This document shows, piece after piece, positions 30,660-36,948 of a DNA stretch of 38,420 nucleotides. The stretch's first letter is position 1, and every line of letters begins with the position of its first letter. The notes under the pieces were generated by a model. That model searched no databases. It was not told where the DNA came from and worked only from the letters and a program-made list of their open reading frames with translations. A program made the position numbers and the translations under genes. The DNA comes from a virus. The stretch is taken from positions 1 through 38,420 of IMG/VR virus record IMGVR_UViG_3300007639_000007. One strand, written 5' to 3'.

Positions 30660-31682
30660 TTAGATCTCATATGTGCTCAAGGAATTGTTCAACTGCTGAG
30701 TAACACGAACAAATGTTGCACGCTTACTCAACTCCTTCAATTCACTTGCTCCAACATAGGTACACGCTGAACGCAGACCACCTAAAATATCTTGCATTGT
30801 TCTACTGACTTCACCACGATATGGAATCTCAACCGTCTTACCTTCAGAGGCTCGATAGTTTGCCACACCACCATTATGCAGATCCATAGCAGTATCAGAA
30901 CTCATACCATAGAACTTATTCTCACCAAACGGAGATGCTCCACCCTCTTTATGTCCTGCAAGCATTCCACCAAGCATCACAAAGTCGGCACCCGCAGCAA
31001 ATGCTTTCACAACATCTCCAGGAACGGAACACCCTCCATCCGCTATGATGTGACCCTTGAGACCATGTGCAGCATCTGCGCACTCAATAACTGCACTCAA
31101 CTGCGGGTAGCCGATACCAGTCATCTTCCTGGTTGTACAAACAGAACCAGGACCAATACCAACCTTCACAATGTCAACACCTGCGAGAATCAATTCCTCA
31201 GTCATCTCTGGTGTGACAACATTACCTGCCATTAGAACTACACTAGGATAACGATCACGAAATTTCTTGATGAAGTCGACAAACGTTTGTGTGTAACCAT
31301 TCGCAACATCAATACAAACTCGCATCAGACGATTGCCAACAACGCTGTACACATTGTCGAACTTTTGTAAATCTTCGTCGCTAATTCCCATTGAATAAAT
31401 GGTGCTGTCTAATTTTTTAGCAAAATGCTCAATGAGTTTTGTATCACTATAATGTTTTGTCAGTGCAACCATGCAATGGTGCTTGTTAAACTCTGCATCC
31501 ATCTCTAGTGTTCCAACACCATCCATATTCGCTGCGATGATTGGAACACCAAACCAAGAGTTATAACTTCGAAAGGTGAACAATCTTTCAAGTTTTACTT
31601 GACTCCTTGAGGATAAAGCAGATCGCTTTGGTGTTATGAGAACGTCTTTATAATCTAATTTCACATCTTCAACGATACGCAT
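30660..31682 (-). CDS. guaC: GMP reductase (GuaC-like)
   Basis: This 340-aa TIM-barrel enzyme (E. coli GuaC is 347 aa) converts GMP to IMP with NADPH and releases ammonia. Motifs: [11 protein letters not shown] (11-21), [10 protein letters not shown] (51-60), CIDVANGY (123-130), [15 protein letters not shown] with catalytic C182, [18 protein letters not shown] and ADGGC, then YGMSS and [14 protein letters not shown] near the C-terminus. No CBS domains are present, and the sequence is nearer to GuaC than to IMP dehydrogenase. A phage would gain adenine and inosine nucleotides from host guanine pools. It lies between the SleB-like gene and gp33 with short gaps, so it is a co-transcribed metabolic gene. 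Confidence 0.9.
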
Positions 31683-32653: not shown

Positions 32654-32751
32654 TTTCATCTCCTTTGTGTGTTGTGTGTGTTATGACAAATGGTGCGTTT
32701 ATTCTGTTTCCAAGAAAACCCACCGAAAACTCAGGTAATCTATGACTGCAA

Positions 32752-32790
32752 TTAAGCAGCTAGAGCCATTTCGTAGTAATCGTCATTTGC
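32752..32790 (-). other. ssrA: tmRNA proteolysis-tag ORF ANDDYYEMALAA
   Basis: The frame GCA AAT GAC GAT TAC TAC GAA ATG GCT CTA GCT GCT TAA encodes ANDDYYEMALAA, ending in the ALAA degron recognised by ClpXP-type proteases. E. coli uses ANDENYALAA. GCA is the resume codon. The Ala added first from charged tmRNA is not coded here. Confidence 0.92.
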
Positions 32791-32877
32791 GTTTACTTTC
32801 TTTGCGCTGATTAAGTCAGTCGCCTCACTGGTTGCTGTCGGGTTATTACTTGCCCTGTCGAAGCCAAATTCATCCCC

Positions 32878-32921
32878 ATAAGATAGCCACCACGTACATT
32901 ACTGCAGAGGTGATGGGCATT
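32878..32921 (-). other. Spacer removed from the permuted tmRNA precursor
   Basis: The 44-base segment between the encoded CCA and the GGGGATG start is the intervening loop of the permuted gene. It contains ATCACC and GGTGGC that may form a short hairpin. Known permuted tmRNAs lose this segment during maturation, leaving two RNA pieces; here this is inferred. Confidence 0.75.
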
Positions 32922-32983
32922 TGGTGGAGATGTCGGGGGTCGAACCCGAGTCCAGAACACCTTTAGTCGTCAGTTTACAACCA

Positions 32984-33148
32984 TTATTCGGTTATGAGAA
33001 TATCTCTATTTGCAACATGCTCATTGTATGCAGTCTGTGCTGCTTCTACTTCACTGTACGGAGCATTTTCTTCCAAATTGCGGACAATCGCGTCAGTTAG
33101 AATTTCTTTCAATTCTCCTAATCTATCATTGTATTCTTCTTCTGTCAT
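32984..33148 (-). CDS. Small acidic protein, unknown (54 aa)
   Basis: This 54-aa ORF reads MTEEEYNDRLGELKEILTD, continues helical with EENAPYSEVEAAQTAY, and ends in DILITE. It begins 8 bases after the AhpD stop and ends exactly where the tmRNA acceptor piece should begin. Its helical, charged and normal-looking composition supports a real gene. Shine-Dalgarno is weak, so translation may depend on coupling to AhpD. I do not recognise the family. Confidence 0.5.
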   Translation of the reverse strand: MTEEEYNDRLGELKEILTDAIVRNLEENAPYSEVEAAQTAYNEHVANRDILITE

Positions 33149-33156
33149 GATAATAT

Positions 33157-33666
33157 TTAGCCATTCAGAATTTTTGCAACAGCATTCATCGTTGCGGAAA
33201 TACGACCGATGTCGCGAAGTTGTTCAACTGTCATTCCTTCTTTTTTGAGGGTATCGTAGTGTGCCTTTACACAGAAATGACACTTACCAACAATTGACGC
33301 AGCAAGAGAATATGCTTCAAAATTAACTTTTGAAGTGCCACCATGGCTCATAATCGCATTCATACGAAGTTGTGCAGGCAATCCTTTGAGTGCAGGATCT
33401 TCTGCCATCTCAACATATGGATACCAGACATTGTTTTGTGCCATGATCGATGCAGCACTCAATGCTGCATCGGCTTCCTTGCGATCTTCCAATTCTGCAT
33501 CAAATGCAGTAGCAAGCCGACTATTTCCAGTTGCAAATGCTGCAGCGAGTGCGCATCCAGTTGCAACTTTTGGATCAAGCGTACTGCGATTAATCACAGC
33601 ATCAAGATTCAAACGAATATCTTTAGCATATTCTGGAATTGCTTCCTTGATGATATCAACCCACAT
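33157..33666 (-). CDS. ahpD: Alkylhydroperoxidase AhpD
   Basis: This 169-aa protein (mycobacterial AhpD is about 177 aa) starts EAIPEYAKDIRLNL, as AhpD does. It has AASIMAQNNVWYPYVE, RMNAIMSHGGTSKVNFEAYS with E117, and GKCHFCVKAHYDTLKKEG with C129, H130, C132 and H136. The CxxC, downstream His and Glu are the catalytic network of AhpD. The His is at C+1 rather than C+2 as in Mycobacterium. AhpD reduces AhpC after peroxide turnover, and AhpC is encoded about 1.1 kb upstream in this block. Its ATG overlaps the small Cys protein stop by 11 bases, so coupled translation is likely. Confidence 0.9.
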   Translation of the reverse strand: MWVDIIKEAIPEYAKDIRLNLDAVINRSTLDPKVATGCALAAAFATGNSRLATAFDAELEDRKEADAALSAASIMAQNNVWYPYVEMAEDPALKGLPAQLRMNAIMSHGGTSKVNFEAYSLAASIVGKCHFCVKAHYDTLKKEGMTVEQLRDIGRISATMNAVAKILNG

Positions 33667-33874
33667 TTGCTGTTTCCCTCTGTTGTCTTGCAGCGATTCT
33701 GTCAGCCATCATCTTCATTCCAATTTCGTATGCTTCACGTGCTTTTGCAAGACGTTCTTCATCCATGTCATGCCAGCCAACACACTTCCCTGTTGGGCTG
33801 CGACCACAGTCACACGTTGCATTTCCAATTCGTGCAATTTCAGGAGGAATTGTATGTGCTAGACTTTCGCTCAT
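33656..33874 (-). CDS. Small CDGSH-like 3Cys-1His protein
   Basis: This 72-aa protein has the motif CDCGRSPTGKCVGWH with C21, C23, C31 and H35. It recalls the CDGSH iron-sulfur motif (CxC, Ser, Cys, Gly and His), but one residue is missing between Ser and the third Cys, and the D of CDG is Val. Such CxCGRSPTGKCxGWH proteins occur in other phages and bacteria and may bind a metal or Fe-S cluster; this is unproven. It overlaps AhpD, so a redox role is reasonable. A late-type TATAAATT box and a GGAG Shine-Dalgarno lie upstream. Confidence 0.6.
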   Translation of the reverse strand: MSESLAHTIPPEIARIGNATCDCGRSPTGKCVGWHDMDEERLAKAREAYEIGMKMMADRIAARQQRETANVG

Positions 33875-33887
33875 GATTATTTCTCCA

Positions 33888-33907
33888 GTGTAAATTTATA
33901 TTTACAC
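33888..33907. repeat. Perfect inverted repeat GTGTAAAT-TTAT-ATTTACAC
   Basis: A 20-bp perfect palindrome (8-bp arms, 4-base centre) covers the EF-hand stop codon and the region before the 72-aa gene. On the minus strand it contains TATAAATT (33900-33893), one base from the late consensus. It has no T-run, so it is more likely a regulatory site or processing hairpin than a terminator. Confidence 0.55.
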
Positions 33908-34141
33908 AACTCTGTCGCAGCGGTCAAAGAGATATCTCTTTGCTGTACGCATTTCTGCATTGTTCAAAAAACCATCACCATTCTTATCAGCAGTTTCAAA
34001 AAGTGACTTTGTAACTGTGCAGTAGCGATTAATGTCATCAAATGATACTTTGCCGTCCCTGTCAAAGTCATATTGTGCTACGCGATCTTGCGCCAATACT
34101 GGAGCAGAAACGAGAGCGAATGCTAGAATTAATTTCTTCAT
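33902..34141 (-). CDS. Exported EF-hand calcium-binding protein
   Basis: This 79-aa protein has a signal peptide MKKLILAFALVSAPVLA, with cleavage expected after ALA before QDR (about residue 17). Two EF-hand loops follow: DFDRDGKVSFDD (25-36) and DKNGDGFLNNAE (52-63), with the Asp, Gly and Asp/Glu ligands of a canonical 12-residue loop. C41 and C75 could form a disulfide in the periplasm. I chose ATG 34141 over an upstream ATG at 34231 because the signal peptide begins here and AAAGGA lies about 8 bases before it. The role is unknown; calcium-dependent binding outside the membrane is inferred. Confidence 0.78.
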   Translation of the reverse strand: MKKLILAFALVSAPVLAQDRVAQYDFDRDGKVSFDDINRYCTVTKSLFETADKNGDGFLNNAEMRTAKRYLFDRCDRVV

Positions 34142-34152
34142 TTTGATTTCCT

Positions 34153-34260
34153 TTAGTAAAGTATATTTGTAAAAGTAATTAACAACCAAAATGCTCCGAA
34201 ACAAATCAACGGAATTAAAACTAACCCCCATTCCTGTAAAAATCGCAGAGCCTTATTCAT
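34153..34260 (-). CDS. 35-aa single-pass membrane peptide
   Basis: This small ORF encodes MNKALRFLQEWG followed by a hydrophobic stretch (LVLIPLICFGAFWLLITF, residues 13-30) and ends in TNILY. It has a positive N-terminus and one predicted transmembrane helix. The ATG overlaps the last 8 bases of the oxygenase gene, and the stop is followed directly by the Shine-Dalgarno of the EF-hand gene, so it fits a gap of 112 bases exactly. No family is recognised. Holin-like or assembly roles are possible but unsupported. Confidence 0.5.
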   Translation of the reverse strand: MNKALRFLQEWGLVLIPLICFGAFWLLITFTNILY

Positions 34261-34792
34261 GATTTTTGTACTGACATGTGTAAACGTATCGAACATCTGG
34301 ATTCCATTGAACTAAACCAGGTTTATGTTTCAATCTTCCATCAAACGCCACTATTTGTCCTGGAACAAAATCGATGGCTAACTCTTTTTCACCGTACATA
34401 TTATAAAACAATGTCTCACCACCGTTATCTGTATCCCATATTGTGTTTATGTAATACAATATAGTAAAGACATAACCATCAGTATGTGGATAATATCTGC
34501 TACCAGCCAAAGTACCATTTATCCAACTCCTAACTCGAGAACGATTGTGAACAATTTTTTTAATAAACTCGTGTTTATTCAAACCAAAATCGTTATCCTC
34601 TTCATCAGAAAATATACAACTATGAAACGAACCCAACTTACTTGATTTATAACCTATATCAGAATGATTCCCAAACATATACTTTGAAAACACAGCAAAC
34701 ATATAGAAATCATTTTGCTCTTGAGCAGTAAAAATATTCTGATATATGTCAATACTAGATCCGCAGGTAAGTTTTAATGATTTGTATACCAT
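34253..34792 (-). CDS. 2-oxoglutarate/Fe(II)-dependent oxygenase-like protein
   Basis: This 179-aa protein has the HxD...H...R pattern of the prolyl-hydroxylase-type oxygenase fold: H103 and D105 in YYPHTDGYVFTILYYIN, GGETLFY, then FVPGQIVAFDGRLKHKP with H156, and NPDVRYVY with R168. Such enzymes hydroxylate proteins, nucleic acids or small molecules using 2-oxoglutarate and O2. They are frequent in marine T4-like phages, but the substrate here is unknown. It lies 7 bases after AhpC. It needs Fe(II) and O2, which ties it to peroxide-related chemistry. Confidence 0.8.
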   Translation of the reverse strand: MVYKSLKLTCGSSIDIYQNIFTAQEQNDFYMFAVFSKYMFGNHSDIGYKSSKLGSFHSCIFSDEEDNDFGLNKHEFIKKIVHNRSRVRSWINGTLAGSRYYPHTDGYVFTILYYINTIWDTDNGGETLFYNMYGEKELAIDFVPGQIVAFDGRLKHKPGLVQWNPDVRYVYTCQYKNHE

Positions 34793-34799
34793 ACACCAT

Positions 34800-35372
34800 T
34801 CAAGCGGCGTTCAATGTTGCTTCGCCGATCTGGCGACCACACTGGCAAAGTTCACCCGTCTGCAAAGCATCGAGAACACGAAGTGTCTCATCTGCATTAC
34901 GACCGACAGCAAGACTATTCACGGTAACATGCTGAATGACATTTTCTGGATCAACGATGAATGTTGCACGGAGTGCCGCACCTGCTGGTTTATAGAAAAC
35001 GCCAAGTTGTTGAACAAGACCTTGTTCATCATCATGCCACTCATCACTACGCGCAGTGTCAGCAAAGAACCAAGAAGTGGTTGTTCTGAGACCTTCGTGT
35101 GCATTCTTCCATGCGAGTTTGCAGAATTCATTGTCAGTTGAACCGATGAGAAGAACTGCATCACGATCAGCAAAGTCCTTGTTCAACTTATCGTATGCAA
35201 TAATTTCGGTTGGACAAACGAATGTAAAATCTTTTGGATAGTAAACAATAACCTTCCACTTTCCTTCGAATGATGTTTCAGTAATATCTTCAAAAGCATT
35301 GTCAGGTGTAAGAGCACCAGGTTTGACACCAGTGATGCGAAATTCTTCTAACTTATCTCCAACTGTCTTCAT
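34800..35372 (-). CDS. ahpC: Peroxiredoxin AhpC (alkyl hydroperoxide reductase subunit C)
   Basis: This 190-aa protein (mycobacterial AhpC is 195 aa) has the peroxidatic motif PKDFTFVCPTE with T50 and C53, R135 in ALRATFIVDP, and resolving cysteines C176 and C178 in the GELCQCGR C-terminal motif. The latter resembles mycobacterial AhpC ELCAC, which uses AhpD as reductant. It reduces H2O2 and organic peroxides. Another Cys (C84) is present. I chose ATG 35372 because AGGAG lies about 6 bases upstream; a TTG two codons earlier is not needed. A 230-base upstream region with promoter, hairpin and operator-like repeats precedes it. AhpC heads the accessory block that ends with AhpD. Confidence 0.92.
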   Translation of the reverse strand: MKTVGDKLEEFRITGVKPGALTPDNAFEDITETSFEGKWKVIVYYPKDFTFVCPTEIIAYDKLNKDFADRDAVLLIGSTDNEFCKLAWKNAHEGLRTTTSWFFADTARSDEWHDDEQGLVQQLGVFYKPAGAALRATFIVDPENVIQHVTVNSLAVGRNADETLRVLDALQTGELCQCGRQIGEATLNAA

Positions 35373-35513: not shown

Positions 35514-35542
35514 ATTCTACTATACAAGATCAACCTTGTCAA
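35514..35542 (-). promoter_or_regulatory. Sigma70-like promoter for the ahpC block
   Basis: On the minus strand TTGACA (35542-35537) and TAGAAT (35519-35514) are separated by exactly 17 bases. Start of transcription would be near 35507, giving a 135-base leader before ahpC. The promoter lies between the nuclease gene and ahpC. Host-polymerase recognition would suit early or continuous expression of the redox block. Confidence 0.7.
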
Positions 35543-35606
35543 GTTTTTCTTGGTATGCTTGAATGTATTTCAACAATTATTGACGATATAACTCTAATTC
35601 ATCCTC

Positions 35607-36206
35607 TTACACTACAAGAGTCTGACAGAAGTTTGCAGTATCTACGCCAATGAGGATAATGACCTGTTTCGGATCCAATCCTGTCATCTCTTTGAACATC
35701 TGGCGATAGGCAGCGGCTTGCATAAAGTAATTGCCGATGTTCTCTTTCTTCTTGAGACGAACGGAAGTCTTAAAGTCGATGACAGAGAGAATTCCATTAT
35801 GCTCAGCAATACAGTCTACCGTTCCAGCAAGTTTAAGTTCGTGAGAGAACAGACGATCTTCCAAGCAATGAATGTTATTGACCTTGGCATCTATTTCTTG
35901 TTTCATTCGAACGAACAAAGACTTGACGTTTGGTAACATCTCTAGGGATGAGATGTCTTCATTCTTGAGATACATTTCGAGTGCTTTGTGGACGGATGTC
36001 CCACGAGTCGTGGCTTTACGAGAGATTTCATTGGCTTTATCATTACCAACTCTCTTGCGCCATTCTAGAATGGCTTCTTTACCATAGTCAGAAAGAACTG
36101 TGGTGACTGAAGGGTATTTCTCACCTGTGGGTGTGACATAGCACCGAGTTCCGTCAACGTTCTCTTGAAGAAGTTTCGGGAAATCATGACGAATATGATT
36201 AAACAT
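35607..36206 (-). CDS. PD-(D/E)XK nuclease (Cas4/RecB-like)
   Basis: This 199-aa protein has the motifs of RecB/Cas4-like exonucleases: TRGTSVHKALE with H73, LKLAGTVDCIAE with D131, VIDFKTS with D144 and K146, and FMQAAAYRQMF with Q163 and Y167. It has no Fe-S Cys cluster. In T4-like phages such nucleases act in DNA recombination or end processing; the substrate is not known. I chose ATG 36206 because it overlaps the PhoH stop (ATGTTTAA) by 8 bases; an upstream in-frame ATG at 36236 would lie well inside phoH. Confidence 0.8.
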   Translation of the reverse strand: MFNHIRHDFPKLLQENVDGTRCYVTPTGEKYPSVTTVLSDYGKEAILEWRKRVGNDKANEISRKATTRGTSVHKALEMYLKNEDISSLEMLPNVKSLFVRMKQEIDAKVNNIHCLEDRLFSHELKLAGTVDCIAEHNGILSVIDFKTSVRLKKKENIGNYFMQAAAYRQMFKEMTGLDPKQVIILIGVDTANFCQTLVV

Positions 36207-36948
36207 TATTTTCTTTTTCGTACCTTTCAACTGCAATCAAGAAATCTTTGACAAGACTACTACGAACAATGTCATCAGTAGTAAATTCAATGTTGGTAAA
36301 CGACTGCATCATCTTTGCAATTTCATGAAACTTCTTCATGCCACTTTTGTCTTTGTTATTGCGATAGAGATCAGTCTGTTTATAATCGCCGCAGAAGATA
36401 ATCTTCGAACGATAACCCACACGAGTCATTATAGTCGACAATTCTTCAAAAGTCATGTTCTGACATTCATCGACAATAATAACGGCATCGTCGAAACTCA
36501 TACCACGAATGAAACTTGTGGAGATGAATTCAATGCGCCCACATTCTTTTAATGCTTCGTATGAATCTCTTCGACCAAACAGCGTGTGATAGATTTGCAT
36601 GTAAGGTTGTTCATACAAACTCATTTTATCTTCTACAGATCCTGGAGTGAAACCAAGATCACGCGACTGCACTGCTGAACGCACAATAACAACTTTATGA
36701 AATGATGAAGTCTTATCCAAGACTTCTTCAATTGCTTTGTAACAGGCAATAAATGATTTGCCAGTTCCTGCAGAGCCACAGAGCATGATAAAATAATCAC
36801 CACGCTTGTATGCGTCGAAGAATAATGATTGATTTGTTGTGAGTGGTGCAAACTGCTTCAGTTCAGCAGCCTTGATTCTCGCTGGCTTCTTTTCTATTGG
36901 CTGATCACTGAAGACGATTTCAGTGTTTCCGTTTTTCTTTTTAGACAC
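36199..36948 (-). CDS. phoH: PhoH-like P-loop ATPase
   Basis: This 249-aa protein has Walker A GSAGTGKS (58-65), SAVQSRDLGFTPGSVEDKM (about 91-109), Walker B VIIVDECQN (156-164) and a sensor-like IIFCGDYKQTDL. It has an N-terminal basic tail. PhoH is frequent in marine phages and is linked in the literature to phosphate response, though its biochemical role is unclear. It lies in a compact series with the nuclease and the small protein upstream, which points to a nucleic-acid function. Confidence 0.88.
   Translation of the reverse strand: MSKKKNGNTEIVFSDQPIEKKPARIKAAELKQFAPLTTNQSLFFDAYKRGDYFIMLCGSAGTGKSFIACYKAIEEVLDKTSSFHKVVIVRSAVQSRDLGFTPGSVEDKMSLYEQPYMQIYHTLFGRRDSYEALKECGRIEFISTSFIRGMSFDDAVIIVDECQNMTFEELSTIMTRVGYRSKIIFCGDYKQTDLYRNNKDKSGMKKFHEIAKMMQSFTNIEFTTDDIVRSSLVKDFLIAVERYEKENNV

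Follow-up and report, generated by a model that had tools for sequence, protein, structure and literature searches.

Does a T4-like phage carry a complete pair of peroxide-reducing proteins, where did such a pair come from, and what could it do in an infected cell? These questions are raised by two genes, ahpC and ahpD, in the window, i.e. the whole 38.4 kb virus record (38,420 nucleotides) analyzed here, which is a fragment of a T4-like myovirus. Phages carry genes for photosynthesis and for phosphate and nucleotide metabolism. Our analysis makes it likely that the accessory metabolic cargo of this one includes an intact, peroxide-reducing AhpC/AhpD pair with a Burkholderiales-type operon as its ancestor. 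What the sequences show directly is gene integrity, family membership, residue conservation, purifying selection, co-occurrence in a conserved order and ancestry. The two genes and the features around them are:

35514-35542, minus strand: sigma-70-like promoter match (TTGACA-17-TAGAAT, 11/12), a consensus match only, about 142 bp upstream of ahpC
34800-35372, minus strand: ahpC, encoding a three-cysteine peroxiredoxin of 190 aa with C53, C176 and C178
34253-34792, minus strand: 2OG-Fe(II) oxygenase-like ORF, between ahpC and ahpD and outside the unit
33902-34138, minus strand: small EF-hand protein with a signal-peptide-like start, a local gene also found where AhpC and AhpD are absent
33656-33874, minus strand: 72-aa CxCGRSPTGxCxGxH protein with a CDGSH-like motif, overlapping the ahpD start by 11 bp
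33157-33666, minus strand: ahpD, encoding the putative CxxC reductant of AhpC, 169 aa, with E117, C129, C132 and H136
32661-33014, minus strand: permuted (two-piece) tmRNA with the tag ANDDYYEMALAA, matching the Rfam betaproteobacterial tmRNA model

The window is genuinely viral, as seen from its T4-like genes: proteins of the baseplate wedge and hub, gp53, a T4 baseplate match, gp32, gp59 and PhoH. Its gp6 is closest to those of Methylophilales phage Melnitz and Pelagibacter phage Mosig (39-40%). The minus-strand order is exonuclease, ahpC, the oxygenase-like ORF, a small membrane ORF, the EF-hand protein, the CxCGRSPTG protein and ahpD, followed by a 54-aa ORF, the permuted tmRNA, an 81-aa ORF, a CwlJ-like hydrolase, GMP reductase, gp59 and gp32; ahpC and ahpD sit in a variable cargo region of this virus. 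The match of the tmRNA to the betaproteobacterial model would fit a betaproteobacterial host. The tmRNA genes of relatives have varied tags, for example ANDDSFTPMALAA, ANDSNYDLPLAA and ANDAYYDQELPLAA. The GMP reductase (30660-31682, minus strand), which scores above the NCBIfam GMP_reduct_1 cut-off, is kept in nearly all close relatives. The exonuclease gene (35607-36236, minus strand) stops early, the versions of relatives being about 25-30 residues longer, and its tail is still readable at 35519-35606 (minus strand) past two in-frame TAA codons. The promoter-like site upstream of ahpC falls inside this tail, and sigma-70-like sites in the window are no commoner than in shuffles.

Both genes are complete, and the coordinates, strand and catalytic residues that the earlier note had given for them are exact. 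AhpC matches Pfam AhpC-TSA (E 7e-23) and aligns over nearly its whole length with Mycobacterium tuberculosis AhpC (2BMX; phmmer 1e-39), being about nine residues longer near positions 109-117. It has one peroxidatic cysteine in a PxxxTxxC motif and two C-terminal resolving cysteines (CxC), and all three (C53, C176, C178) are conserved across all 101 distinct AhpC sequences from viruses. Its score is below the curated cut-off of the TIGR03137 equivalog (107.4 vs 272 bits), as are those of Burkholderiales AhpC controls (116-117 bits); TIGR03137 is another AhpC branch, under which the phage protein is not classed.

AhpD passes the cut-off of Pfam CMD (E 6e-12), is above that of TIGR00778 (core domain) and matches M. 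tuberculosis AhpD (1GU9) over nearly the full length (phmmer 3e-24). Its residues E117, C129, C132 and H136 align with those of the mycobacterial protein and are invariant among all 93 distinct AhpD sequences from viruses. In an AlphaFold2 model (pLDDT 88.6) the predicted AhpD fold spans the full length, the top PDB match being 1GU9 (TM 0.85, E 5e-9). AhpD falls under the cut-off of the NCBIfam subfamily TIGR00777 (129.8 vs 191.95 bits). Two Burkholderiales AhpD proteins score even lower, 114.7 and 117.6 bits, so this cut-off excludes the whole Burkholderiales branch, and missing it is no argument against an AhpD of that branch.

The pair had been described as lying in one minus-strand block. 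The strand is indeed shared, but the genes are 1,133 bp apart and four ORFs lie between them (34253-34792, 34156-34296, 33902-34138 or 34231, and 33656-33874). The suggested link to O2 chemistry of the neighboring oxygenase did not hold: the oxygenase was ruled out as part of the unit, since a homolog is present at only three of 158 viral loci, each near-identical to the window. Whether the CxCGRSPTG protein belongs to the unit is uncertain. Its gene neighbors ahpD here and adjoins or overlaps it at several loci; as a partner of AhpD it was rejected, being also found at loci without AhpC and AhpD (L301, L305, L308). Comparison of its model (pLDDT 74, pTM 0.52) with the PDB gave no match. The CxCGRSPTGxCxGxH proteins are small phage proteins of one family, similar to CDGSH iron-sulfur proteins but with one residue fewer between the cysteines. 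A CDGSH protein directly follows ahpD at two other viral loci, L131 (5507-5659), where it scores above the Pfam zf-CDGSH cut-off, and L133 (3797-3949).

Among named phages, AhpD has no match and AhpC has only distant ones (at most 35% identity where most of the protein aligns). IMG/VR, in turn, contains at least 599 matching stretches for AhpC and at least 599 for AhpD. We fetched 158 viral loci and inspected their gene content. Both genes were present at 130 of them, always on the same strand with AhpC first, the two overlapping by 40, 4 or 1 bp in some cases and lying up to several kb apart in others; nine loci had AhpD only, all with less than 1 kb of upstream sequence. A fairer measure of co-occurrence is given by 55 distinct loci recruited by AhpC alone and having at least 2.4 kb downstream. 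AhpD was found downstream at 45 of these 55, in the same strand and order and often overlapping AhpC, and at one additional locus (L065) elsewhere on the contig. Co-occurrence in viral contigs, which had been proposed as a check of the pair, is therefore strong. At ten of the 55 loci AhpD was not nearby, so AhpC may persist there with another donor.

Some carriers are T4-like relatives of the window; others belong to different lineages and include records of 250 and 270 kb. A gp23 capsid gene is present in nine of 41 long carrier records, and a T4 baseplate protein, terminase, Hsp20, ligase or endolysin in others; all other records are classed as viral by IMG/VR only. Several side observations concern these and related contigs. 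Rubredoxin-like genes directly or shortly follow ahpC in T4-like contigs, with or without ahpD (L009:5839-5991, L013:4201-4359, L030:1616-1780 and L074). Two large viral contigs bearing AhpC/AhpD have tRNA genes with the CTA anticodon, called tRNA-Pyl by ARAGORN (L148:1157-1230 and L050:6315-6391), which are possible amber suppressors. More distant T4-like phages have a different AhpC-like gene, about 40% identical (L354:5500-6021, also L359 and L371), which directly precedes gp59; the L354 copy has a single C-terminal cysteine, and no AhpD was seen in the fetched stretches of these three loci.

Where the pair came from was addressed with trees of both proteins. In each of them all viral sequences group in a single clade (SH-aLRT 99 for AhpC and 99 for AhpD) beside the Burkholderiales sequences, and the M. 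tuberculosis protein is placed at a great distance from both groups. Both trees are quick ones with partial bacterial sampling. That for AhpC was mainly Pseudomonadota; for AhpD, 84,980 genomes were scanned and the best 80 matches taken, almost all of them from Burkholderiales or betaproteobacteria, together with one Bacteroidota MAG contig (L160). No other nominally bacterial sequence falls within the two viral clades, and this 5.9 kb contig is probably viral and misbinned. Identity to Burkholderiales reaches 64-68% for AhpC and is 52-63% for AhpD. The mycobacterial resemblance pointed out earlier thus stands for the nearest solved structures, whereas the nearest kin by trees and identities are Burkholderiales. 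An unrelated type of peroxiredoxin, named in the earlier note as the outcome that would speak against its reading, is not what the tree gives: AhpC groups with the Burkholderiales branch instead.

The gene order points in the same direction, as ahpC is followed by ahpD at 78 of the best 80 bacterial AhpD loci and at 44 of 51 bacterial AhpC loci. Taken together, the sequences argue for descent of the viral pair from a Burkholderiales-type bacterial ahpC-ahpD operon. Tight co-evolution of the two proteins within viruses was rejected, the correlation of viral AhpC and AhpD distances being weak (Mantel r 0.23, and 0.04 without near-copies), which suggests partial reshuffling after acquisition or differing evolutionary rates.

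Close relatives were sampled by gp32 (at least 85% identical, with a complete exonuclease-to-CwlJ interval). Both genes are present in two of the six relatives, which represent one phage type, and both are absent from the other four, two of which are near-copies of each other; more distant relatives having this interval also lack ahpC and ahpD. The pair is hence patchy among close relatives, that is, accessory cargo in a variable region and not core. The dN/dS ratios of the window ahpC and ahpD against relatives are 0.08-0.18, demonstrating purifying selection on both in viruses. Appearing host-derived, lying on a true viral genome and being selectively kept, the pair can be regarded as auxiliary metabolic genes.

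What the pair would do is best read from Burkholderia thailandensis. There, AhpC has the peroxidatic C57 and the resolving C171 and C173, AhpD binds AhpC directly and reduces it via its CxxC motif, and electrons from Lpd/SucB/AhpD/NADH are preferred over those from TrxC (PMC6626918). As this Lpd/SucB to AhpD to AhpC route has been shown biochemically and none of these cysteines is missing from the phage proteins, the phage pair is best predicted to run the same cycle. On attacking its substrate (H2O2, peroxynitrite or an organic peroxide), C53 of AhpC would turn into a sulfenic acid, which C176 and/or C178 would resolve to a disulfide. This disulfide would be reduced by AhpD through its C129/C132 dithiol, aided by E117 and H136, after which host Lpd and NADH, acting through a lipoyl-bearing E2 subunit of the host (SucB or similar), would return AhpD to its dithiol form. 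By analogy with B. thailandensis, the earlier proposal of a three-cysteine AhpC whose reductant is AhpD and which needs host electrons is thus supported. We infer that the phage pair is enzymatically active, draws on host electron donors, is expressed in infection and benefits the virus; the likely benefit is that enzymes and DNA of the infected cell are shielded from peroxide until lysis.

One could suppose instead that the benefit lies in AhpC, with host thioredoxin or small redox proteins of the phage (rubredoxin, CDGSH-type) as its main reductants, and that AhpD is a side partner or has another job. The ten of 55 AhpC loci without AhpD nearby and the rubredoxin-like ORFs right after ahpC at several loci (L009, L013, L030) agree with this, as does the ability of B. 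thailandensis AhpC to accept TrxC, though less well (PMC6626918). We consider it unlikely, as AhpD retains all catalytic residues, has a low dN/dS and accompanies AhpC at most loci. No rubredoxin is present in the window, and elsewhere it is found at loci that have AhpD as well as at loci that lack it (L007, L008, L012); the two not being exclusive, there is no clean replacement of AhpD by rubredoxin.

It is also rather improbable that the AhpC/AhpD pair counters a specific host attack, by peroxynitrite or by a burst of reactive oxygen raised by infection, and not ambient peroxide. Peroxynitrite is among the substrates reduced by B. thailandensis AhpC (PMC6626918), but the pair has no defense-system neighbor and a defense function of either protein was rejected, as PADLOC gave no match for AhpC or AhpD. 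The chemistry would be identical to that of the main reading, which makes the two inseparable by sequence.

More doubtful is a broader scheme in which the electron donor of peroxide removal is exchangeable, AhpD mostly and elsewhere a phage rubredoxin or CDGSH-type iron-sulfur protein; peroxide removal could then tap different host electron pools. That the genes are neutral passengers, acquired from hosts and circulating in a variable region with no role in infection, would agree with their patchiness among close relatives but is highly improbable given invariant catalytic residues in about 100 distinct sequences of each protein, dN/dS of about 0.1 and presence in several virus lineages. On the main reading, a complete set of peroxiredoxin and reductant, kept intact across many virus contigs, would suggest that peroxide truly limits infection in these bacteria.

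AhpC and AhpD themselves are ordinary members of known families; the points of interest are the pair, its breadth among viruses and its clear tie to a characterized bacterial system. The nearest solved structures, M. tuberculosis AhpC (2BMX) and AhpD (1GU9, 1KNC), have the same catalytic residues as the phage proteins. In M. tuberculosis AhpD is the reductant of AhpC and is fed by SucB/Lpd. In the open-access literature we found no description of phages with AhpC and AhpD together, an absence that is weak evidence. A 2025 study of a Lake Erie bloom reported ahpC on viral contigs and suggested a role in oxidative stress during infection (PMC12542629); we liken it to our locus by description only, and it named ahpC alone, without AhpD. 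Phage Melnitz resembles the window in being T4-like with phoH and a two-piece tmRNA (PMC9004378). However, neither Melnitz nor Mosig, the nearest named T4-like phages by gp6, has a match to AhpD; no named phage does, and AhpC matches among named phages are distant at best.

The closest known system is that of Burkholderiales, whose genomes have the same ahpC-ahpD order as the viruses and whose sequences branch closest to the viral ones in both trees. The phage pair is like that of B. thailandensis in combining a three-cysteine AhpC with a CxxC AhpD, there the electron donor of AhpC (PMC6626918), the identity to the Burkholderia proteins being about 57% for AhpC and 56% for AhpD. The B. thailandensis genes are chromosomal and controlled by OxyR (PMC6626918), whereas those of the phage are virus-borne and 1.1 kb apart. 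Since the bacterial version has already been characterized biochemically, the phage pair is directly testable.
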